Part shown: positions 22,684 to 34,819 of the stretch, piece by piece
How positions within the stretch are numbered: position 1 is the stretch's first letter
How the letters are laid out: every line of letters begins with the position of its first letter
Origin: Clostridiales bacterium
GTDB taxonomy: Bacteria > Bacillota > Clostridia > Christensenellales > DUVY01
Assembly (NCBI GenBank): GCA_012840805.1
Contig: DUVY01000021.1
Location: 1 to 40,274 of the forward strand
Direction: 5' to 3'
DNA length: 40,274 nucleotides
Made by a program: the position numbers and the translations under genes
Notes under the pieces: generated by a model
Told to the model about the DNA's origin: nothing
What the model saw: only the letters and a program-made list of their open reading frames with translations
Database searches by the model: none

Positions 22684-22779
22684 AATTTGGGGATTGGGAA
22701 ATAATCAAATTGCTCATCATTTTCCCCCTTATAATATGCAATAAGGACAGCTCTATTTTTCCTGTTGGCTGTCCTTTTT
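22684..22779 (+). ncRNA. Putative C-rich small RNA, copy A
   Basis: Proposed small RNA of about 95 nt between queT and the 3' end of xylA. A TATAAT at 22672-22677 could start it (its -35 is poor), or it may be cut from the queT 3' UTR. It contains a 35-nt block (22703-22737) with core CATCATTTTCCCCCTTAT, which is 33/35 identical to a block in copy B (32630-32664, other strand). Five nt later comes a terminator hairpin whose sequence is unrelated to the one in copy B. The core is the reverse complement of a Shine-Dalgarno plus AUG. In this copy GGGAAA at about 22696-22701 could fold onto the C-rich core. Confidence 0.5.
22743..22779 (+). terminator. Terminator after queT / small RNA A
   Basis: Perfect 9-bp stem AAGGACAGC (22743-22751) with GCTGTCCTT (22768-22776), then T residues on plus. 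On the minus strand no T tract follows, so it is a poor terminator for xylA. Confidence 0.8.
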
Positions 22780-22809: not shown

Positions 22810-24123
22810 TTATGAAAACAGTATTTGGTTGATAATACTCTCAAGATATTCTTGACTGCCGCTTTCTACTTTGATTTCGTCCAAAGTCGAGGCGATTTCG
22901 GCAAGTTCTTTTAAGTTGGTTTTGCCTTCAACTATCTTTTTGCCTATGCCTGTTGAGTAACTTTGATATCTTTGGACGACAAAACTATCTATGCGCCCGT
23001 CCGATATAATTTTGTCCGCGGCAATAAGCCCTATCGCGAAAGCGTCCATACCCGCTATATGAGAGATAAATATATCTTTGAATGTGTTGGAGCTTCTGCG
23101 CGCCTTCGCGTCAAAGTTAAGACCGCCTTTGGTAAACCCGCCAGCTGATAGCACTTCATACATACAAAGAGTGGTTTGATATACATCGGTGGGGAATTGG
23201 TCCGTATCCCAGCCTAGCAAAGTATCGCCTTGATTGGCGTCAATTGAGCCGAACATATTATTATCTTTAGCTACTCTTAACTCGTGCTGAAAAGTGTGTC
23301 CCGCCAAAGTCGCGTGATTGGCTTCTATGTTTAGCTTAAAATATTGGTCAAGTTCGTAAGATTTCAAAAAACCTATGACGGTAGCGGCGTCAAAATCATA
23401 TTGATGTTTTGTAGGCTCTTTGGGCTTGGGTTCTATATAAAAATCGCCCTCAAAACCTATACTCTTGGCATAATCTACTGACATTTTCAAAAACCTAGCC
23501 AAATTGTCAAGCTCTAGTTTCATATCGGTGTTGAGCAATGTTTCGTAGCCTTCCCTGCCGCCCCAAAAGACATAACCTTCGCCCGAAAGTTCCAAAGTGG
23601 CGTCTAGCGCCTCTTTGACTTGGGCGGCGGCGTAACAAAACACATCGGCCGAAGGCGAAGTCGCCGCGCCGTTCATATATCGCGGATGCTCAAACAGCTT
23701 CGCTGTGCCCCATAATAATTTTTTGTTATAATCTTGCTGAAGCTGTTTTAGAAGCTTGACTATTTCTTTTAGGTTTTTGTTGGTTTGGACTAAGGTGTCG
23801 CCCTCGGGCGCTACATCGCGGTCGTGAAAGCAATAAAAATCAATATCTAATTTATCCAAAATCTCAAACGCGGCGTAAGCTTTTAGTTTGGCTGTTTCCA
23901 TTGGGTTAGCGCCGCCAAAACTTTTGTCCATTGAAGCCGCGCCAAACATATCTATGCCTTCGCCGCACAGCGTATGCCAATAGCTCATAGCGAACCTTAG
24001 ATGCTCGCGCATTGTTTTGCCCCTTATTACTCTGTCGGGCTCGTAAAACTTAAAACTCAAAGGGTTTTTGCTGTCTTTGCCCTCGTATTTGATTTTGGGG
24101 ATGTCTTTAAAAAATTCTCTCAT
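22810..24123 (-). CDS. xylA: Xylose isomerase
   Basis: 437-residue metal-dependent TIM-barrel isomerase converting D-xylose to D-xylulose, class II length. Catalytic His100 and Asp103 lie in [11 protein letters not shown]; the metal-site segments FWGGREGYE and [14 protein letters not shown] are intact. The ATG at 24123 is preferred over an in-frame TTG at 24132, because GAGG is spaced correctly only for the ATG. It begins one base past the end of xylB. Last gene of the sugar operon; it supplies the pathway with xylulose from xylose freed by the GH31 enzyme. Confidence 0.97.
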
Positions 24124-24124
24124 A

Positions 24125-25648
24125 TCAACCAACCTCGCTTAAAATTTTGAATCTATATTTTAAATCATCATACAAAGCTTTGTAAATTTTATAATATTGA
24201 TCGTATATTTGGGAAGCTGCCATGTCAGGGGTCGTTTTGTTTTCAAGTTTTAATATGTTTTCGCAGGCGGTTTTTACATCTTTATATAACCCCGTTCCTA
24301 TACCTGACAAAATGGCAGCGCCCAAACATCCGCCTGCGTCTTGCTGCAAGGTATAAACATCGCATTTGAAATTGTCGGCAAGCATTTTCCGCCAATACGG
24401 GCTTTTAGCTCCGCCGCCGCCCGCTACAATGTATTCGGGCTCAATGCCCATATCAATCAATATATTAAGACAATCTCTTTGGCTGTAAGTTATGCCTTCT
24501 ATGACCGCCCGCGCAAAATGCGCCTTGGTGTGTATAGCGCTTATGCCAAAAAATACGCCGCGCGCGTTTGTGTCCAGATGCGGAGTGCGCTCGCCCATTA
24601 GATAAGGCAAGAAGATAAGATTGTCCGCGCCTATTTTGAGTTTTTGGACTTGATCCATAATAATGTCGTATATATTAAGCTTTTTATCAGCGGCCTGCTT
24701 TGCCTCGGTTTGATAAAAATTATCCTTAAACCATTTTAGGCTCAATCCCGCGCCTTGCGTCACGCCCATAACATGCCATTGCCCTTCCACAGCGTGACAA
24801 AAAGTATGCACTCTGCCTAACTTGTCAATCAACGGCTCTTGGGTATGGGCAAACACCACGCCGCTAGAGCCCAAAGTGTCCGACACTCTGCCTTTATCTA
24901 TAATCCCGTTGCCCACGGCGCTTGCCGCCTGATCGCCCGCTCCGCCCGCCACAGGCGTGCCTTTACATAACCCTGTCTCTTCTGCCGCTTGGGCGTTAAC
25001 ATAACCGCTTATATACGAGCTTTCATATACTTCGGGCAAAATTTTGGTATCAATCCCTAAAATTTCGCAAAGTTCGCCCGACCATGTTCTTTTGGGCACA
25101 TCCAAAAGCTGCATGCCGCTGGCGTCGCTCACTTCTGTCGCCAAAACGCCCGTTAGTTTGAATCTGATATAGTCTTTGGGTAATAATATATGAGCGCATT
25201 GTTTATAAATATCGGGCTCGTTGTCTTTGACCCATAATAATTTTGCCGCCGTGAACGCGGGCATCGCGGGATTTGCCGTAATTTCTATAATTTTGTTTCC
25301 GCATTTTTCGGCTATTTTTTTGGCTTGCAAGTCGCTTCTGCCATCGCACCAAATGATAGAATTTCTTAACAGGTTTTTTGAGCTGTCCAGCATCACAAGC
25401 CCGTGCATCTGACCCGAAAGCCCGATGCCAGCGATATCTTGCGGATTTATCTTGCTTTGGTTAAGGACATCTTTTATGCCCAAAACGGTCGCCTTCCACC
25501 ATTGGAGCGGGTCTTGTTCCGCCCAGCCGTTTTTGGGCTGTATCAGCTCATATCCAAATATTGACGAAGCCACAATTCCGCCAAATTGGTCAAACAAAAC
25601 GGTCTTCGTGCCGCTTGTGCCTATGTCAATGCCTATAAGATATTTCAT
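24125..25648 (-). CDS. xylB: Xylulokinase
   Basis: 507-residue FGGY-family kinase phosphorylating D-xylulose to xylulose 5-phosphate. The N-terminal ATP-phosphate loop is [26 protein letters not shown] and the catalytic-base segment [12 protein letters not shown] follow, and the FGGY signature region is [18 protein letters not shown]. The start (MKYLIGID) overlaps the fucosidase stop as ATGA, which rejects a 37-codon longer frame. GGGGAAAG lies upstream of the ATG. Fourth gene of the operon. Confidence 0.96.
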
Positions 25649-26943
25649 TGCTCTTTCCCCGTTTGATTTTTTAGCTCTATCTTTAAGACAGTTATATCCT
25701 TGTATTTGGACGGCGCTATGTCCACAAAAGTATATTGCGGATAATTTGTCGCCACCCATTCGGTCATAATATTTAGCTCGCTAAAGTCGTCAAGCATAAT
25801 AATTTTTTGGATGTCTTTTCTGTCTATTGATGGAAACAATAAAGGACCAATGGGGCGCTCGTAAATATGCGCGAATATTATATTATCTTTTTTTGTATAT
25901 CTGCCCCATTCGGGCTTGGGCAAGCCGCTGTCTGTACATCCATAAATACTTTCGCCGTAAACTTTGAGCCAACCGCCTATTTTTTGTAATATCTGTATAC
26001 ACTCTTGCGGAATATTGCCTCTGGCGTCAGGTCCGACATTAAGTATCATATTGCCGCCTTTAGAAACCGCCTCGGTCAATTTTTTTATAATCAAATCGGC
26101 GCTTTTATAATTTTTGTCCGCCGAGTTGTATCCCCAGCTTTCGTTCATTGACACGCAAATTTCCCAAGGCACATGCTCGCCCGCCTCGTTTTTGAGCGCC
26201 TGTGGCGGCATAAGCTGTTCGGGACAGGCAAAATCGCCGCTAAAAATCTCGGGGTTTTGGCTCATAATACCGCCTAAGTTTTCGCCCGAGGCGTCCAATC
26301 TGCTGTTTATTAAAATTTCGGGCTGATAATTACGAATCATCTTCACAAGCTCGCTTGCGCGCCAATACTCGCCTCTATATTGATCATAAGAAAAGTCAAG
26401 CCACATTAGGTCAATCTTGCCATAATTGCTGACAAGCTCTTTTACTTGGGCGTGCATATAGTCCAAATATTTGGAAAAATCTCTCGGCGTATCGTATTTT
26501 GGATTATCGCGCATAGGATGAAAGGGGTCTTTATATGCGGGATAATGCTCGTGACGCCAATCCAACAAAGAATAATACAGCCCTACCTTAAGCCCTTGCG
26601 CCCTGAACGCGTCTAAAAACTCTTTGACTACATCTTTTTTGAGTTTGGTATTGGTTATCTTGTAGTCTGTTAGTTTGCTGTCAAATAGACAAAAACCGTC
26701 ATGGTGTTTTGCCGTCAATACGGCGTATTTCATCCCCGCTTCTTTGGCGCATTTTGCCCAATTATGCGCGTCAAAATCAACGGGGTCAAACATCTCAAAA
26801 TATTGGTCGTAATCTTCATCAGGGATTTTTTGAATGCTTTTTATCCATTCGCCCTTTGCCGCAATGGCGTAAAGCCCCCAATGGATAAACATCCCAAATC
26901 TAAGATTTCTAAACCAAAGGCTGTTTTCAAATCTTTTACTCAT
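25645..26943 (-). CDS. Alpha-L-fucosidase, GH29
   Basis: 432-residue GH29 enzyme that removes terminal alpha-L-fucose. Typical motifs are FGMFIHWGLYAI, VLTAKHHDGFCLFDS and IDLMWLDFS, where Asp183 is the expected nucleophile. No signal peptide, so it acts in the cytoplasm on imported oligosaccharides. The ATG overlaps the GH42 stop by one base (TGATG), indicating coupling; a TTG one codon earlier is less likely. In this operon it probably unmasks galactose under a fucosyl cap. Linkage preference (1,2 or 1,3/1,4) cannot be read here. Confidence 0.93.
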   Translation of the reverse strand: MSKRFENSLWFRNLRFGMFIHWGLYAIAAKGEWIKSIQKIPDEDYDQYFEMFDPVDFDAHNWAKCAKEAGMKYAVLTAKHHDGFCLFDSKLTDYKITNTKLKKDVVKEFLDAFRAQGLKVGLYYSLLDWRHEHYPAYKDPFHPMRDNPKYDTPRDFSKYLDYMHAQVKELVSNYGKIDLMWLDFSYDQYRGEYWRASELVKMIRNYQPEILINSRLDASGENLGGIMSQNPEIFSGDFACPEQLMPPQALKNEAGEHVPWEICVSMNESWGYNSADKNYKSADLIIKKLTEAVSKGGNMILNVGPDARGNIPQECIQILQKIGGWLKVYGESIYGCTDSGLPKPEWGRYTKKDNIIFAHIYERPIGPLLFPSIDRKDIQKIIMLDDFSELNIMTEWVATNYPQYTFVDIAPSKYKDITVLKIELKNQTGKEQ

Positions 26944-28943
26944 CAATCAATCTTCTCCAAACACCTAAAGCTGTATGGTTCTATCTCAATTACCCCCGAT
27001 AGTTTGGTTGATGTTTCAACATCCAAATATTGTCCGTCTAGTTCTACCCAGCCTTTTTCGTAGAATAATTCAATTACGCAATAGCCTATTTTGTCGCCGT
27101 TTCTTCTTTTGATTGCCAATACATTGGAACTTGTCTTTAGCTTAGGCGCGCAATCGGCTTTTTTTAGATAGGTTTTTATTAGCGCTAATAATCGCTCTTG
27201 CTCGGGCATCGCGCCCATTACGACTATTTCGCCTTTTCCTACCTTGCAACCGACTATGGCGGCTTTTTGGTCTATTGACGGGCTCGGCGAATTATACCTA
27301 GCGATAACTTTGTGCTCGGGCTTGGTCAAAAAGACATCGTTCCATATGGTCGTTTTGCTCAATATCCCGTCTTCAAACTCAATGGTATTATTCAAACAAG
27401 TGGACGGAATTTGATAAATATTTTGTATGCCTGTTAAGTCTTCAATAAACCCGAATACCGAATTTCTATACTTCGCGTAATAGCGGTTGCGTATGTCGGT
27501 CAGCGGTCCTGCTATCCAGATCCCGCCTTGGTTAACCCATTCTATAAGCCTAGCGGCAAAATCCCCTTCTTCTATTGATATCAAAAATGGCGAATACAAA
27601 ACTTTGATGCCGTCTAAAGAATTATTGGGATTATGAACGCTCGGCGCTATGCCGTCTTTTAACAAAGGATAATAACAATTTTTAATAATATTTTCGGTAT
27701 AGTGAAATCCCGCTACTACTTTTTGACCTTCAAAGATATTATAGGCGTTGCTTGAAAAGCTCATAGCAAACTCCGCTTTGTCAAGCTCAAACTCGGTCAA
27801 AAATTGTTGGCACTTTTCCAATGTTTGAGCCGCTTGGACGGTTTCGTCAAAAACATGAACGGGCTTGCCTTGCGATGTTATGACCGAAGAATGCATAAGC
27901 TCGGGTCCCGCGTAATGCGCCCTAAACAGCCAATACAAATTCATCTCGCCCCTAAAAGCAAAAGGAATCAAAGTGTTTATATAATTATAACCAATGGGGT
28001 AAAGACTTGGATTGACGCTGTTCGCGCCGTTCGCGGTGGTGGCTGTTTCGGTGTTCCAAAACGGTCTGTCTTTTAGTCGGGACATATAATCCATCCAAAA
28101 CGCGCACTCATAAAAATTTTCCTTAGAGTGATAATGATTAATCATTACCACATCTAGATTTTGATTGGTTATATAATGGTCCTGACTTACAAAGGTCATC
28201 ATATCCGTTCCGATTGGAACTTTTATGCCGTTTTCTCTTAAGATGTCGGCTTGGCGGGATATAAAATTGGCGTTGCTACGCATTTGAAAATCTATGTATT
28301 CGGTAGTAAAAGCCGGATGAGAGCCCCAATCTTTGATTTTGGGATACTCTATTTGGTCAAAGGCGCTATATTCTATGCTCCAAATTCTAAGCGCCATTTG
28401 TTTATTGAGATTGTCTATTGTTTTGTATTTTTTCTTAAGATGCTTGTAAAACTCCTTCATACAAAAATCGCAATGACAGCCTTGAAGCCAGGGATAGATT
28501 TCGTTATCTATTTGCCAGCCTATGACAGCCTCGTGGTCTTTAAAGTACTGCGCCATCTTAGATACTATCTTTTGGACATAGCTATTAAAGACCGGGCTGT
28601 TGGGGCAGCCGTGTCCGCGCCCGCCGTGAACAGCGTATGAGCCATTGTCATCGCGCCTTAAAATTTCGGGGTGTTTTTTAGTAAGCCATATAGGAGGAGT
28701 ATTGGAAGGAGTGCAAAGAATGCTGTAAATGCCGTTTTGATACAGCTTGTCAACTACTTTTTTGAGCCATTTAAAATTATATTGTCCCTCTTGAGGTTCA
28801 AATACGCTCCACGCGAATTCGCCCATCCGCATAACATTAAGACGGGCTTTTTTCATATATTCTATGTCTTCGTCTATGGTTTCAAAATAATATACCTCAG
28901 GATAATACGCCGCTCCTAAATATAAATTTTTTTTTGACATCAT
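26943..28943 (-). CDS. Beta-galactosidase, GH42
   Basis: 666-residue GH42 enzyme. The acid/base is Glu148 (IGWQIDNE) and the nucleophile Glu299 (FWNTETA). The zinc site of the family is complete: Cys113, Cys156, Cys158 and Cys161. The trimerisation/glutamine-amidotransferase-like domain (about 385-590) and a C-terminal beta domain follow. No signal peptide. AAGAGAG precedes the tandem ATGATG. In context it would release beta-linked galactose exposed by the fucosidase; plant arabinogalactan or milk-type substrates are alternatives. Confidence 0.94.
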   Translation of the reverse strand: MMSKKNLYLGAAYYPEVYYFETIDEDIEYMKKARLNVMRMGEFAWSVFEPQEGQYNFKWLKKVVDKLYQNGIYSILCTPSNTPPIWLTKKHPEILRRDDNGSYAVHGGRGHGCPNSPVFNSYVQKIVSKMAQYFKDHEAVIGWQIDNEIYPWLQGCHCDFCMKEFYKHLKKKYKTIDNLNKQMALRIWSIEYSAFDQIEYPKIKDWGSHPAFTTEYIDFQMRSNANFISRQADILRENGIKVPIGTDMMTFVSQDHYITNQNLDVVMINHYHSKENFYECAFWMDYMSRLKDRPFWNTETATTANGANSVNPSLYPIGYNYINTLIPFAFRGEMNLYWLFRAHYAGPELMHSSVITSQGKPVHVFDETVQAAQTLEKCQQFLTEFELDKAEFAMSFSSNAYNIFEGQKVVAGFHYTENIIKNCYYPLLKDGIAPSVHNPNNSLDGIKVLYSPFLISIEEGDFAARLIEWVNQGGIWIAGPLTDIRNRYYAKYRNSVFGFIEDLTGIQNIYQIPSTCLNNTIEFEDGILSKTTIWNDVFLTKPEHKVIARYNSPSPSIDQKAAIVGCKVGKGEIVVMGAMPEQERLLALIKTYLKKADCAPKLKTSSNVLAIKRRNGDKIGYCVIELFYEKGWVELDGQYLDVETSTKLSGVIEIEPYSFRCLEKID

Positions 28944-28996
28944 TTCTCTCTTAATCTATTGTAGCAGATTGTTTTGGTTTTGTAAATAGCGTTTTT

Positions 28997-31288
28997 TTAT
29001 TTTAATGAAACCGTTATGTTGTTTGATTCTGCCTCAAGCATCAAGCCGCGTTCTGTGACTTTGGCTTGCGCGCCTTGAATTTCGGCGTTTTTTATCCCGT
29101 TAAGAAGTATATATTTTACTTCGCCTTGAGTTATTATGTTGATAACATCTTGTTCTTTAGTCGCGTTTACTTTGGCTTGTCTTTTTTGGTCATAAGTATT
29201 AACAACGCACTCAGCGCGGGATTGAAGATTAAATATCTCATATACCGTATCGGCGATATAATCGTAATCAGGGCGGTCATTGACGCTTCCTTTGGGAATA
29301 ATGCTGTCGGAACGAACATACATAGGCAGCGAGAAAAAGTCATATTGCTTTTTGTGCCATCTGCCGCCTTGAAGTTTTTCGCCGCTTAGATAATGAACCC
29401 ATTCGCCCTCGGGCAAATAAAACTCGCACCAATTGTCTTTGGATAGCACGGGCGCGACCAATATATCTTTTCCAAACATATACTGTCTGTCTAGGTATTT
29501 GCAGGTGGGCTCGTCAAACTCAAAAAACATCGGTCGCATAATAGGCGTGCCTTTTTGGTGCGCTGTTATAGACGCTTGATATATGTAAGGCATTAACGAG
29601 CATTTTAGATTGGTAAAAAACCTTAAAACATCGCAGGCTTCCTCGTCATAGACCCAAGGCACTCTATACGCGCCCGAACCGTGCAGTCTGCTGTGCGACG
29701 ACAAAAGCCCAAAGGCGACCCACCTTTTGTATATATCGGGCGGCGAATTGTTTTCGAATCCGCCTATATCGTGGCTCCAATAACCAAAACCGCTACACAT
29801 CAAGGACAGTCCGCCCCTTAGGCTTTCCGCCATAGAATTGTATGTGGAATTACAATCTCCGCCCCAATGAACAGGAAACTTTTGTCCGCCCGCGCAAGCG
29901 CTTCTGGCAAATAATATCGCCTCGTTTATGCCCTTTTTTCTTTGCAACAACTCAAAGACGCAGGCGTTATATAAATAAGTGTAATAATTGTGCATTGCCC
30001 TAGGGTCAGAGCCGTCATAATAAACCGCGTCTTCGGGGATTTTTTCGCCAAAATCGGTCTTAAAAGAGTCCACGCCCATATCTATTAATTTTTCAAGTTT
30101 GTCCGAATACCATTGGCGCGCTTGGGGATTGGTAAAGTCCACTATCGCCATGCCCGCCTGCCATTCATCGCGTTGGTATATCCGCCCGTCCGCGCGCTTT
30201 AAGAAGTAGCCGTTTTTTAGGCCTTCTTCAAACATCTGCGTTTTTTGGGCAATATATGGATTAATCCAAACGCATATTTTTAGACCTTTTTTGCGAAGCC
30301 TTTTTAGCATGCCTTCTGGGTCGGGGAACGAATCCTTATCCCATACCAAGCTGGTCCATTCAAATTCCTTCATCCAAAAACAATCAAAATGAAAAGTGCT
30401 CAAAGGAATCTGGCGCCTTTGCATTTCGTCTATAAAGAAATTAACAGTTTTTTCGTCGTAATTGGTGGTAAACGAAGTTGACAGCCAAAGCCCATACGAC
30501 CAAGGCGGCAATAACGCGGGTCTGCCGGTTAATTGGGTGTATTTGTCCAAAATATCAGCGGGCGTTTTGCCGTATATGATTACATACTCCAGCTCTTCGT
30601 CAGCCACGGAAAATTGGGTTTCCTCTACCTTTTCGCTTCCTATCTCAAACGAAACAAGGTCGGGCGTGTTGACAAAAATCCCATAGCCCTTGCTACTCAT
30701 AAAAAAAGGCACATTTTTGTAAGACATCTCGCTTGCCGTTCCGCCGTCCACATTCCATATATCTATGGACTGGCCGTTCTTGATAAAGGGCGTAAATCTC
30801 TCGCCGCCGCCATAGATGCATTCGCCCACGTCAAGCTCTAAGCCATTGACCAAGTATCTGGTTTGTGTGTGTTTGTCCGTCATTATTGACAAAGATTTGT
30901 CCAAATAACCCGTAAGCTTTTTATCGCCCGCGAAAAACGATATATTAAACGGCTTTTTTTGGGCGCGCATCGTAAGGTTGCCAGAGGTCAACTCAGCGCC
31001 GCTTTCGGTTATGCGGATGTCTATATTTTTGCGTTCCCATTCAAATTTTTTGATATTTCTTTTGCCGCCTTTGTGACCGATTAGCCTTATGCTTATACAA
31101 TCTTGAAGCGGAGAATACGCTTCTATAGTCAAAAGACCCAAATTAAGCGTATGATAACGAAATTCAATGTTTCTAAACGGACAATACATAGTCAGCAAGT
31201 TTTGGGATTGTCTTATATCCCTGATTTCTCGCGCGTACTCAGCATTAAATTTTTCTTTTACTGTCCAAAGCCCTTCCGTAAATTTCAT
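28997..31288 (-). CDS. yicI: Alpha-xylosidase, GH31 (YicI-like)
   Basis: 763-residue GH31 enzyme, very like E. coli YicI throughout. The nucleophile is Asp412 in FKTDFGEKIPED and the acid/base Asp478 in FPVHWGGDCNS; YicI uses the equivalents Asp416 and Asp482. The YicI-type insert signature YGGGERFTPFIKNGQ and KSLLSSHSRLHG-like LLSSHSRLHGSGAYRVPW are conserved. It should cleave alpha-1,6-xylose from isoprimeverose-type ends of xyloglucan oligosaccharides. Cytoplasmic (no signal peptide). First gene of the operon, with AAGGGG before the ATG and a terminator-like hairpin in its leader. Confidence 0.95.
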   Translation of the reverse strand: MKFTEGLWTVKEKFNAEYAREIRDIRQSQNLLTMYCPFRNIEFRYHTLNLGLLTIEAYSPLQDCISIRLIGHKGGKRNIKKFEWERKNIDIRITESGAELTSGNLTMRAQKKPFNISFFAGDKKLTGYLDKSLSIMTDKHTQTRYLVNGLELDVGECIYGGGERFTPFIKNGQSIDIWNVDGGTASEMSYKNVPFFMSSKGYGIFVNTPDLVSFEIGSEKVEETQFSVADEELEYVIIYGKTPADILDKYTQLTGRPALLPPWSYGLWLSTSFTTNYDEKTVNFFIDEMQRRQIPLSTFHFDCFWMKEFEWTSLVWDKDSFPDPEGMLKRLRKKGLKICVWINPYIAQKTQMFEEGLKNGYFLKRADGRIYQRDEWQAGMAIVDFTNPQARQWYSDKLEKLIDMGVDSFKTDFGEKIPEDAVYYDGSDPRAMHNYYTYLYNACVFELLQRKKGINEAILFARSACAGGQKFPVHWGGDCNSTYNSMAESLRGGLSLMCSGFGYWSHDIGGFENNSPPDIYKRWVAFGLLSSHSRLHGSGAYRVPWVYDEEACDVLRFFTNLKCSLMPYIYQASITAHQKGTPIMRPMFFEFDEPTCKYLDRQYMFGKDILVAPVLSKDNWCEFYLPEGEWVHYLSGEKLQGGRWHKKQYDFFSLPMYVRSDSIIPKGSVNDRPDYDYIADTVYEIFNLQSRAECVVNTYDQKRQAKVNATKEQDVINIITQGEVKYILLNGIKNAEIQGAQAKVTERGLMLEAESNNITVSLK

Positions 31289-31477: not shown

Positions 31478-31535
31478 TAAACACCATTTTACCATTATTT
31501 TGATAAATTTTGCAAGTTTTTTGATGCGCATACAA

Positions 31536-31564
31536 ATATTGTTACAAAAATTATCTATTGACAA
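31536..31564 (-). promoter_or_regulatory. Putative promoter of the sugar operon
   Basis: Minus strand TTGTCA (31559-31564) and CAATAT (31536-31541), spacer 17 bp. The poor -10 fits a promoter needing an activator. Initiation near 31529 would give a leader of about 240 nt. Confidence 0.4.
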
Positions 31565-31587
31565 AACAATTTAAAATATATTAATAT
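31558..31587 (+). promoter_or_regulatory. Putative promoter of araC
   Basis: TTGACA (31558-31563) is a perfect -35; TAATAT (31582-31587) at 18 bp is a fair -10. Its -35 box overlaps that of the divergent operon promoter almost exactly. Confidence 0.5.
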
Positions 31588-31708
31588 TGTTATATAAAGA
31601 TTATAAAGTCTGTTTGCCAAAAAATATATGTCAATTATTTTAAAGTTAAGCCAAAAATTGCTCTTCAAAACTGATTAACAGATGTTTTGGTTTTTGTGGG
31701 AGGGGAAA

Positions 31709-32545
31709 ATGAAAGAAGAAATGGTCAATTCTATGTATGAGTTATTAAGAGATAGGGGTAACGACCTTTATATACAGTATGCCGATTTTGATCATTGCGA
31801 TGTGCATTTTCATCAATGTATAGAGCTTGCTTTGCTGGAAGCAGGCGAGATGGTAATTACCGTCAACGGCAAAAGCGAAGCGTTTAGAAGAGGGCAAAAG
31901 GGTCTGGCTTTTATCGCCAGTTATGATGTGCACCATATCTTGCGTTCTGATGACAGTAAAATTATTGTCTGCATTATTCCGGCTTTCTTTTTGAAAGGTT
32001 TTTTTGAAGCGGCGGACGAACTCAATTATCAAAGCTGTTTTATTAAAGACCAAGAGTTTATAGATAAAATTTGGCTATTGCTCAAAGAATTGATGGAACA
32101 TAAAAAAAGCAATCTCTTGTTGGTAAAAGGCATAGTCTATACTATTTTGGGGCATTTGATTGAAAGCAAAATGCTAAAAACCGCCAATGACCCCGCGCCC
32201 AATCAATTGACCCAAAAGGTGTTGGAATATTTAAACAATAACTTCAAATCAAAAATTACATTGGACACTTTGGCGGCAGAGTTCAATTACAGCAAATATT
32301 ATTTTTCTAAGATATTTAATCAATATTTCGCGTGCAATCTTTCAACCTATGTCAATATGTTAAGAGCGACCTATGTCGCCGCTCAACTAAACGAAAACTC
32401 CGCCGAAAAAAATATAGTGGAATTGGCGTTTGATGCGGGCTTTGATAGTATGAGAACATTTTACCGTAGCTTTTATCAATTATTCAAAACAAGTCCCAAA
32501 AATTTTAAAAAGCAGATGTATTGTCAACAAAAAGCCATCAAATAG
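31709..32545 (+). CDS. AraC family transcriptional regulator
   Basis: 278 residues: an N-terminal cupin-type sensor domain (HCDVHFHQCIELALLEAGEM, His29, His33 and His35 near the pocket) and a C-terminal double helix-turn-helix (about 175-275; ITLDTLAAEFNYSKYYFSKI and IVELAFDAGFDSMRTFYRSF). The start is set at 31709, where GGGAGGGG is spaced correctly; the ORF could begin 9 codons earlier. Divergent from the sugar operon, so it probably activates it when an oligosaccharide or sugar binds. Its ribosome binding site and start (GGGGAAAATGA, 31702-31712) are perfectly complementary to the proposed small RNAs. Confidence 0.93.
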   Translation: MKEEMVNSMYELLRDRGNDLYIQYADFDHCDVHFHQCIELALLEAGEMVITVNGKSEAFRRGQKGLAFIASYDVHHILRSDDSKIIVCIIPAFFLKGFFEAADELNYQSCFIKDQEFIDKIWLLLKELMEHKKSNLLLVKGIVYTILGHLIESKMLKTANDPAPNQLTQKVLEYLNNNFKSKITLDTLAAEFNYSKYYFSKIFNQYFACNLSTYVNMLRATYVAAQLNENSAEKNIVELAFDAGFDSMRTFYRSFYQLFKTSPKNFKKQMYCQQKAIK

Positions 32546-32589
32546 CGGATAAAAATAGCCTTAATTTTAGAATAAAAAGTTGAGAAAAT

Positions 32590-32623
32590 AAAAAAATGAA
32601 GCGGCTTAAAAATAAGCCGCTTC
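32590..32623 (-). terminator. Terminator of small RNA B
   Basis: Perfect 11-bp stem GAAGCGGCTTA (32598-32608) with TAAGCCGCTTC (32613-32623), 4-nt loop. On minus it is followed by A and then seven T residues (32596-32590); on plus there is no T tract, so it is directed at minus-strand transcripts (the small RNA and any degV read-through). Confidence 0.9.
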
Positions 32624-32690
32624 AAATATATATGATAAGGGGGAAAATGATGAGCTATTTGATTTTGTTGTCCATACCATCTAGCTTACG
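32590..32690 (-). ncRNA. Putative C-rich small RNA, copy B
   Basis: Proposed stand-alone RNA of about 100 nt between degV and the convergent araC gene. It has a perfect TTGACA-N17-TATAAT promoter 59 bp past the degV stop and a strong terminator. The block 32630-32664 (core CATCATTTTCCCCCTTAT) is 33/35 identical to copy A at 22703-22737, while promoter-proximal and hairpin sequences differ, suggesting selection on the core. The core looks like an unpaired antisense to Shine-Dalgarno plus AUG, as in C-rich regulatory RNAs of Firmicutes (RsaE/RoxS, csRNAs). A competing reading, an 18-codon peptide on plus from 32648, is less likely. Confidence 0.65.
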
Positions 32691-32725
32691 AATTGAATTA
32701 TAATATCAATTTAATTTCTTGTCAA
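32691..32725 (-). promoter_or_regulatory. Consensus promoter of small RNA B with palindrome
   Basis: Minus strand TTGACA (32720-32725), 17-bp spacer, TATAAT (32697-32702): perfect sigma-A consensus. An inverted repeat AATTGA (32691-32696) / TCAATT (32706-32711) brackets the -10 box and could be a repressor site. Confidence 0.8.
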
Positions 32726-32783
32726 CTCTTTTGGGTGACTTTATTACACAATTTGAGAACAAATGTGTGACAGTTCTTTCCAA

Positions 32784-33671
32784 TTATTTTTGAGGATCTA
32801 TTTTTATTCTTTTTTCGCCCTCAAAGACTAACCCAATCGTTCCTGGTCCGGTATGTGTTCCTATAATTGGTCCTATGTAACCTATCTTTACCTCTTTGAC
32901 CAAATTTTCTTCCAAAAGCATATTTTTAAGTTCTTGGGCGGTTTCAATATCGTCCGCGTGCGCGATATACGCCTTGGATACGTCTTTTTTGGCGTATTCT
33001 TTGAACGCGTTGACAGCGTATTTTAATGTTTTAGTCGCGCCGCGTTCTTTGTCAAAAGGAACAAGCTGTCCTTTGTGATTGATAATTATTATGGGACGAA
33101 TGCCCAATACCGAGCCTACCATAGCGACCGCTGGACTTACCCGTCCGCCTCTTTTTAAATGGAACAAATCTTTCGCAAATATAAAATGATGCAGCCTTTC
33201 AATAACTTCTTCTAGATATTGGGCTGTTTCTTGGGCGCTCTTTCCCTCGTCTCTTAGTTGTCGGGCTACGTCTAGAATATACCTTTGACCTTGAGTCGCA
33301 GCTTTGGAGTCAATGGCATAAATTTTGCGGTCGGGATATTTTTCCATTACCTCTTTTGCCGCTAATTGCGCGTTAACGGCGGTATTGGATAATCCGCCCG
33401 ATAAAGCGATATGGACGATATCGCCTTTTTCTTCTTTAATTAATTTCTCAAAATATTCGGCCGTTTCAAAGGGCGACAATTGCGTGGTCTTGGACATTTT
33501 GCCCGACCTTAAAACTCCGTAAAAATCCCTATACTCTTGGTCGCTGTCATAATGATCTCTATACTCGACATCGTCAATAATGTAAGCCATAGAGATATAC
33601 TTTATATTGTGCGTCTTTAACTCGCTTTTGTGGCAATCGCAACAAGAATCTGAAGATAAAATAAAACTCAT
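32784..33671 (-). CDS. DegV family fatty-acid-binding protein
   Basis: 295-residue DegV-fold protein. The N-terminal SSDSCCDCHKSEL replaces the usual TDSxxDL signature and is unusually cysteine-rich (Cys9, Cys10 and Cys12). SKTTQLSPFE, the HIALSGGLSNTAVNAQLAA lipid-phosphate loop and KRGGRVSPAVAMVGSVLGIRPI region are typical. Homologues (FakB) bind a fatty acid for phosphorylation by FakA; no fakA is nearby, so its lipid role is inferred. AAGGAG precedes the ATG. Monocistronic, with the small RNA B promoter just after its stop. Confidence 0.92.
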   Translation of the reverse strand: MSFILSSDSCCDCHKSELKTHNIKYISMAYIIDDVEYRDHYDSDQEYRDFYGVLRSGKMSKTTQLSPFETAEYFEKLIKEEKGDIVHIALSGGLSNTAVNAQLAAKEVMEKYPDRKIYAIDSKAATQGQRYILDVARQLRDEGKSAQETAQYLEEVIERLHHFIFAKDLFHLKRGGRVSPAVAMVGSVLGIRPIIIINHKGQLVPFDKERGATKTLKYAVNAFKEYAKKDVSKAYIAHADDIETAQELKNMLLEENLVKEVKIGYIGPIIGTHTGPGTIGLVFEGEKRIKIDPQK

Positions 33672-33712
33672 TTTTCGACTCCTTATAACAAAAATATCAT
33701 AAATACTTTATA

Positions 33713-33741
33713 AATATAATATTTTTTTGGATTTTTTACAA
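33713..33741 (-). promoter_or_regulatory. Putative promoter for degV
   Basis: Minus strand TTGTAA (33736-33741) and TATATT (33713-33718) with a 17-bp spacer, about 42 bp upstream of the ATG. Confidence 0.5.
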
Positions 33742-33780
33742 TATATTTCTTAATAAATTCTATATTTGTATTTTTTACCA

Positions 33781-33812
33781 AAAAAAACATCCCTTGTATT
33801 TAGGGATGTTTT
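33781..33812 (-). terminator. Terminator after the mutarotase-like gene
   Basis: Perfect 11-bp stem AAAACATCCCT (33784-33794) with AGGGATGTTTT (33802-33812) and T residues on the minus strand, 30 bp past the stop codon. Confidence 0.85.
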
Positions 33813-33841
33813 AGTATTGTTTTATCAAATTTTTATTCGTT

Positions 33842-34819
33842 TTAATCTTCCCAATCGTCAAAATCTTCGCATTCGTCGCAACAGCATTCGTCGTCATGCT
33901 CCAAAATTTCGCCATCTTCATAAGCATCCGTAAAAATTTTGAGTTTTTGGTCTATATCGTCTTCGTCGTTATTTTTGGGTTTGGCAATATCTTTGTAAAT
34001 ATGCCATACTTCCGTATATTCCTCGTATTTTTGAGGCGGTATTATAAGCAAAGGAGTCAAGGATTCTATCTCAATAAAGCGGTCATTGGTGTAGGTTTCA
34101 AAATTGCAGTTAAAATTGGGATACAGCGCGTTTTCAAAAAAAGGAAATTCCTTGACCACAAGGTTGTTATGGTTAAAATACGCCGCCCAGCCTCTATGAC
34201 AGGTGGTTCCTATTTTGAACGCTTCTTTTTTGTTTGTTTGTTGGACGGTGATATATTTGTCGCCCCAATAAACTCTTGGGTCGTTCATTGAGCAATACGG
34301 CCAAACAGCGACAGCTCTATTGGCGACAAGCCCCGTATCGTGATTGGAATTGGGAATGACCAACAATCCGCCTGTGTCAAACATTGTAAGCCCCCACAGC
34401 GCAATCTCCACATCAAACATACCGTGATTGGTTATACGGTGGTCGACATAAACAACGCCGTCTTCATCCATAGTAATACGCATTGATTTGGATAATAGGG
34501 TCTTTTGCTCTATTGGCGCGTGTAAAATCACGCCGTCTTCCAAAATGCGAAATTCTACCGCGCTATTGTCGGGCTGATAGGTACGGATTAACTCTTCGGG
34601 CGCGTGCCATAGCCTGTGCCCGCCATAGTTAGCAAACTCTTGTCCGCCTGTCTTGCCGGCGGTCTCAGGAAACACCACCATATGATTTTTGCCGCCGTCT
34701 ATGGTATAGCTTATTATTCTAGGTCCGATATCGGTGGTAACAATAACTTCCACTTCGCCGTTGGTAATGCTTATGCAGTTTTCCCAACCTTGAAAACTTT
34801 TTTTACTTACCGTAATCAT
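33842..34819 (-). CDS. Galactose-mutarotase-like protein (DUF4380 type) with Cys/acidic tail
   Basis: 325 residues. The first 270 look like a beta-sandwich carbohydrate-binding protein of the aldose-epimerase-like DUF4380 type: GWENCISITNGEVEVIVTTD at the start, IGPRIISY and GGHRLWHAPE are the family marks, and TNHGMFDVEIALWGLTMFD follows. No signal peptide or catalytic assignment. The final 30 residues are strongly acidic and contain four cysteines in CCCDEC (DDECCCDECEDFDDWED), unlike the body of the protein and possibly a metal site. It lies alone between degV and dnaB with its own terminator. Function unknown. Confidence 0.72.
   Translation of the reverse strand: MITVSKKSFQGWENCISITNGEVEVIVTTDIGPRIISYTIDGGKNHMVVFPETAGKTGGQEFANYGGHRLWHAPEELIRTYQPDNSAVEFRILEDGVILHAPIEQKTLLSKSMRITMDEDGVVYVDHRITNHGMFDVEIALWGLTMFDTGGLLVIPNSNHDTGLVANRAVAVWPYCSMNDPRVYWGDKYITVQQTNKKEAFKIGTTCHRGWAAYFNHNNLVVKEFPFFENALYPNFNCNFETYTNDRFIEIESLTPLLIIPPQKYEEYTEVWHIYKDIAKPKNNDEDDIDQKLKIFTDAYEDGEILEHDDECCCDECEDFDDWED

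Follow-up and report, generated by a model that had tools for sequence, protein, structure and literature searches.

The closest described counterparts of the RNA genes considered here are the streptococcal csRNAs, whose genes are small and free-standing, with several of them in some genomes, and which form two stem-loops, or the terminator stem-loop alone, leaving unpaired a stretch complementary to the Shine-Dalgarno (SD) sequence and start codon, with CAU as the anti-AUG (PMC3091779). Their promoters are marked by a CiaR site, TTTAAG-N5-TTTAAG or NTTAAG-N5-WTTAAG (PMC3091779). C-rich pairing regions are also found in RoxS/RsaE and FsrA, and RoxS pairs with SD sequences, for example that of ppnKB (PMC8216469).

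Here, we describe a family of small RNA (sRNA) genes from the Christensenellales, an order composed mostly of uncultured Clostridia, which came to light in a 40,274-nt stretch of DNA (contig DUVY01000021.1, hereafter the window). The family is very likely real and apparently undescribed. Only a few trans-acting sRNAs are known to be shared across an entire bacterial order, and those from the uncultured Clostridia of the gut have hardly been explored. Like the csRNAs, its members are stand-alone genes, sometimes several per genome, with a region complementary to SD and start codon that is predicted to be mostly unpaired (mean unpaired probability 0.73 over 49 distinct copies), a terminator stem-loop (49 of 49) and, in many members, a second stem-loop on the 5' side, the 5' part being almost nil in family f24. 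In contrast to the csRNAs, the family belongs to an order outside the streptococci and a CiaR site (NTTAAG-N5-WTTAAG) is found in none of the 49 upstream 150-nt regions, even with one mismatch allowed, and for these reasons we do not file it as csRNA. A search against Rfam at E up to 10 gave no csRNA match, which counts only if Rfam holds a csRNA model. On present evidence, the family would work like the csRNAs without being one, as an independent parallel to their combined anti-SD and anti-AUG design. It shares a C-rich pairing region with RoxS/RsaE, FsrA and CsfG of Bacillus and Staphylococcus, but differs from them in having one long C-tract core with an anti-AUG and in lacking similarity at Rfam thresholds, including to the RoxS/RsaE model, whose presence in Rfam 15 is assumed. 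Multiple copies are likewise a feature of LhrC from the Gram-positive Listeria (PMC4132741); compared through Rfam alone, LhrC gave no match. More generally, a putative promoter of its own, an intrinsic terminator and the lack of a conserved open reading frame (ORF) are what would be expected of a trans-acting base-pairing sRNA.

The original prediction, which found no named class for the RNA, agrees with the databases: searched at gathering thresholds, the window as a whole gave no Rfam match, and related loci gave nothing credible at E up to 10, an overlap with ncr1015 on one of these (L017; E 4.8, 28.6 of 60 bits) being at chance level. The core sequence, as DNA or RNA, was absent from the paper texts searched, and a literature search combining Christensenellales with small RNA terms returned no paper.

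Two gene copies flanking a sugar-gene block

The first gene (copy A), on the minus strand, has degV (32784-33671, minus) on one side and an araC-type gene (31682-32545, plus) on the other. As originally predicted, its promoter is TTGACA-N17-TATAAT at 32725-32697 (minus), a 12/12 match to the sigma-70 consensus and the single such match in a 2.5-kb scan (31500-34000). From this promoter, a transcript of about 100 nt (32590..32690, minus) would be produced. It contains the 25-nt core GCTCATCATTTTCCCCCTTATCATA (32655-32631, minus), that is GCTCATNATTTTCCCCCTTATCATA, which is antisense to an SD sequence plus AUG, followed by a terminator-like hairpin (32624-32597, minus) and TTTTTTT (32596-32590). 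The hairpin and its seven T residues had been noticed before, but the stem has 12 pairs, with a 4-nt loop, and not 11. The 101-nt unit folds with -28 kcal/mol (z = -5.3 against shuffles; none of 200 shuffles was equally stable), the terminator being the main contributor, and the sense strand holds only trivial ORFs of 6 and 24 codons, in keeping with the earlier view that it has no useful ORF.

Copy A is retained next to degV in both same-genus genomes (loci L003 and L004), with a 12/12 promoter, the core and the hairpin, and the terminator stem shows the paired changes TGAAGCGGCTTA/TAAGCCGCTTCA, TAAAGCGGCTGA/TCAGCCGCTTTA and TAAAACGGCTGTA/TACAGCCGTTTTA. An inverted repeat, AATTGA-TATTATAAT-TCAATT, does span the -10 box in the window, and had been taken as a sign of regulation; it is not kept in the two orthologues, and is thus no evidence for an operator. 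Separately, the gap between degV and its upstream gene contains a perfect 11-bp inverted repeat (33784-33812; AAAACATCCCT...AGGGATGTTTT) that is terminator-like on both strands.

A BLAST search of the copy A region against its own genome identified a second gene, copy B, also in the window (match at 22703-22737, plus; E 5.2e-9). It extends approximately over 22685..22775 (plus), between queT and the last gene of the operon, with the core GCTCATCATTTTCCCCCTTATAATA at 22712-22736 (plus) and a weaker promoter (score 9/12) that combines a -10 TATAAT with a weak -35. The covariance model R1, built from the core and a generic hairpin, matches both copies (copy A at 32594-32661, E 5.5e-13; copy B at 22706-22764, E 5.1e-9). 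Copy B also has orthologues in the two same-genus genomes (G001 and G002; loci L072 and L059), again downstream of queT. The terminator loops of these orthologues contain a second C-run (ATCCCCCC), possibly an extra anti-SD, which the window's copy B does not have. The two copies bracket a sugar-gene block (22810-31288, minus) and the divergent araC-type gene. The block encodes a xylose-isomerase-like protein (so labelled from its N-terminus, there being no Pfam match), an FGGY kinase and GH29, GH42 and GH31 enzymes, and together with the AraC-type regulator it forms a putative xylose/xyloglucan-type utilisation locus.

Distribution and layout of the family

At E 0.01, model R1 hits 177 of the 396 genomes sampled from this order (about 45%), although some of the weakest matches may be chance, and 153 of the 329 good-quality genomes of this sample. 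Most matches fall in families f3, f6, f15, f24 and f32, with others in f1, f8 (which has a variant core with one U fewer), f9, f10, f19 and f29. With the copy A region as BLAST query against 60 relatives, 34 of 61 genomes, its own included, were matched at a loose limit (E 0.1), the stronger matches lying mostly on the same 30 nt. Whereas free variation among relatives had been named as the outcome that would speak against a gene, the opposite was found: the core is conserved, which the original prediction had named as support. Among 291 genomes of the class, there was no convincing covariance hit outside the order; the hits obtained there resemble, on inspection, chance SD regions. There was no plasmid match, and the exact core was not found in IMG/VR. 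One full copy lies between a thioredoxin reductase gene and a polysaccharide deacetylase-like gene in a record named ‘Bacteriophage sp.’ and flagged UNVERIFIED (MT835718.1, 11289-14323); given these bacterial-type neighbours, it is probably a mislabelled bacterial contig rather than a phage-borne copy.

The same order of elements recurs at the loci that were read: a promoter, a variable 5' part, GCTCATNATTTTCCCCCTTATCATA and a hairpin. Promoters scoring at least 10/12 are found upstream in 44 of the 49 distinct copies (mean 10.7, compared with 7.9 for shuffled sequences), and predicted transcription starts lie 7-75 nt 5' of the core. In every copy, the hairpin 3' of the core is more stable than its shuffles (z < -2, mean z -6.5), while the terminator sequences themselves are unrelated; many members also show, by inspection, a hairpin in the 5' part. 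RNAalifold predicted no pairs on a MAFFT alignment, because MAFFT cannot align unrelated terminators, and as a separate pair count is partly circular (hairpins were chosen by folding and loops normalised), we take the shuffle z-scores as the evidence. The core is kept over about ten families of the order with fully diverged flanks, and its near-invariance, which makes it findable by a simple pattern, offers a handle on the regulator in metagenomes and metatranscriptomes.

Neighbouring genes mostly differ between families, with thioredoxin reductase or GlmM recurring in a few, so the RNA is not the leader or tail of one particular gene; judged from genome context, the changing neighbours speak for an independent, vertically inherited gene. 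The idea of an independent non-coding RNA gene has therefore held up at the sequence level, as dozens of genomes show promoter, core and terminator hairpin in combination. It is stand-alone in the sense of being independent, but it is not a lone gene, its family being order-wide and represented in the window by a second copy. Usually, there is one copy per genome and at most six. The six are found in G033 (L064, L065, L066), where two tandem pairs lie about 650 and 870 bp apart; at L066 the promoter is not clear by eye and the terminator is GC-rich.

The core and its possible partners

The complement of the core, UAUGAUAAGGGGGAAAAUNAUGAGC, consists of an SD sequence of five G, a 6-nt spacer and AUG-AGC, and its only freely varying base (N) sits in the spacer. 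The core is thus the exact antisense of an ideal initiation region (UAUGAUAAGGGGGAAAAUN-AUG-AGC), which is why the sRNA most likely acts in trans on mRNAs. In the proposed model, the exposed core would pair in trans with several mRNAs, at their G-rich SD sequence and start codon, and block the entry of ribosomes, possibly followed by mRNA decay. We consider it probable that the RNA is a trans-acting antisense sRNA of a new family, masking translation initiation regions. At the sequence level, this is supported by gene architecture, conservation, strand, predicted accessibility and complementarity to initiation regions, from which we infer transcription, pairing in vivo, repression and the identity of controlled genes.

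Target prediction covered G007 (1.51 Mb) together with 1.11 Mb (about 70%) of G080, using crude calls of gene starts (1319 and 938, respectively) and a cut-off of -18 kcal/mol. In G007, 60 of the 1319 starts fell below the cut-off, compared with 13.2 for shuffled cores and 24.6 for flank-shuffled cores (maximum 45, 40 trials), and in the G080 part 37 of 938, compared with 9.5 and 19.3 (maximum 39). In an ungapped complementarity scan, sites were not enriched at gene starts, so that the target excess is modest and depends on the method. Altering the core at its anti-AUG, its GCU or its 3' AUCAUA lowered the number of predicted strong pairings, in the first two cases in both genomes, and the spacing between anti-SD and anti-AUG showed only a broad optimum. 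Changing CCCCC to CCUCC raised the predicted strong starts to 106 in G007 and 61 in the G080 part, which suggests that the core is tuned to G-only SD sequences and not to every SD. A more far-reaching version, in which the core of an ancient master sRNA of the order stayed almost unchanged across families because it pairs with G-only SD sequences (GGGGG, not GGAGG), and so sets apart a group of mRNAs under translational control, perhaps those of carbohydrate uptake, storage and energy genes, is speculative and would have to be called rather unlikely.

A near-invariant stretch of 25 nt is stricter than is usual for loose pairing to many mRNAs, and no single near-perfect mRNA target was found in G007 or the G080 part, where a perfect core complement occurs nowhere beyond the opposite strand of the sRNA gene itself. 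Both points would suit a real RNA whose core is the binding site of a conserved protein, in a sequestering or scaffold RNA, instead of an mRNA antisense. We regard this as unlikely, because the core complement spells a perfect SD, a correct spacer and AUG, with the variable position inside the spacer, and because random cores, and cores with shuffled flanks, show less pairing at gene starts. The same lack of a perfect complement weighs against a sponge or anti-sponge arrangement, in which the C-rich core would pair mainly with a G-rich sRNA, as in the pairing of RosA with RoxS and FsrA; G-rich sponges do control C-rich sRNAs of Firmicutes (PMC8216469), but we give this possibility very little weight here.

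The opposite strand carries an SD sequence plus ATG (mostly ATGAGC), which in the window leads into a hydrophobic ORF of 17 codons, as would be needed if the RNA were a cis-antisense, type I antitoxin-like repressor of a small peptide. However, over the 49 copies the ORF starting at the conserved ATGAGC varies between 2 and 92 codons without any sequence in common. The conserved SD-ATG is therefore no coding start, and this hardly credible reading is already contradicted. As judged from the sequences, the conserved strand is the one bearing promoter and terminator. The analysis of the 49 copies equally led us to reject a small-protein mRNA or dual-function RNA with a translated core, for which the chances seem slighter still: the core can be read through in two of its three frames, but several of the members inspected have a predicted start 7-9 nt before the core, leaving no start codon, and the leader is not conserved. 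Just as improbable is a mobile or palindromic repeat, or another DNA element, in place of an RNA gene, since despite multiple and sometimes tandem copies in some genomes (G033, G136, G212, G281) most genomes have a single copy, the order of promoter and terminator is constant, the termini are unrelated in sequence and orthologous positions are retained within the genus.

Candidate target genes

Returning to an sRNA that pairs with mRNAs in trans, 4 of 305 pairs of reciprocal-best orthologues of G007 and G080 fell below -18 kcal/mol in both genomes, compared with means of 0.13 and 0.37 in the controls (maximum 2 and 4, 60 trials). With gene names taken from reading N-termini, these are rnfD (top), an FGGY sugar kinase, a large secreted-type protein and an MFS transporter; glgD and glgC come next with weaker energies and lie in the neighbourhood of the MFS transporter in both genomes. 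As a conserved target, rnfD failed a check for co-occurrence with the sRNA: its GGGG leader also occurs in a genus in which no copy of the sRNA was found (g43 of f17), and in f3, which does have the sRNA, it is present in no more than about half of the genomes matched.

Among the 36 gene starts of the window, that of araC pairs most strongly with each of the two copies (-21.3 and -23.5), and those of the kinase and fucosidase genes rank high as well. The araC gene was set aside as a target, the match being lost in the sister species (-14.2), and the window's sugar and araC genes are suggestive at most as targets of the sRNA. A possible strong target was seen elsewhere, at locus L023 (G042:C24), where about 18 nt of the core find their complement in the start region of a prepilin-like gene (TATGATAAGGGGGAAAAATATTATG).
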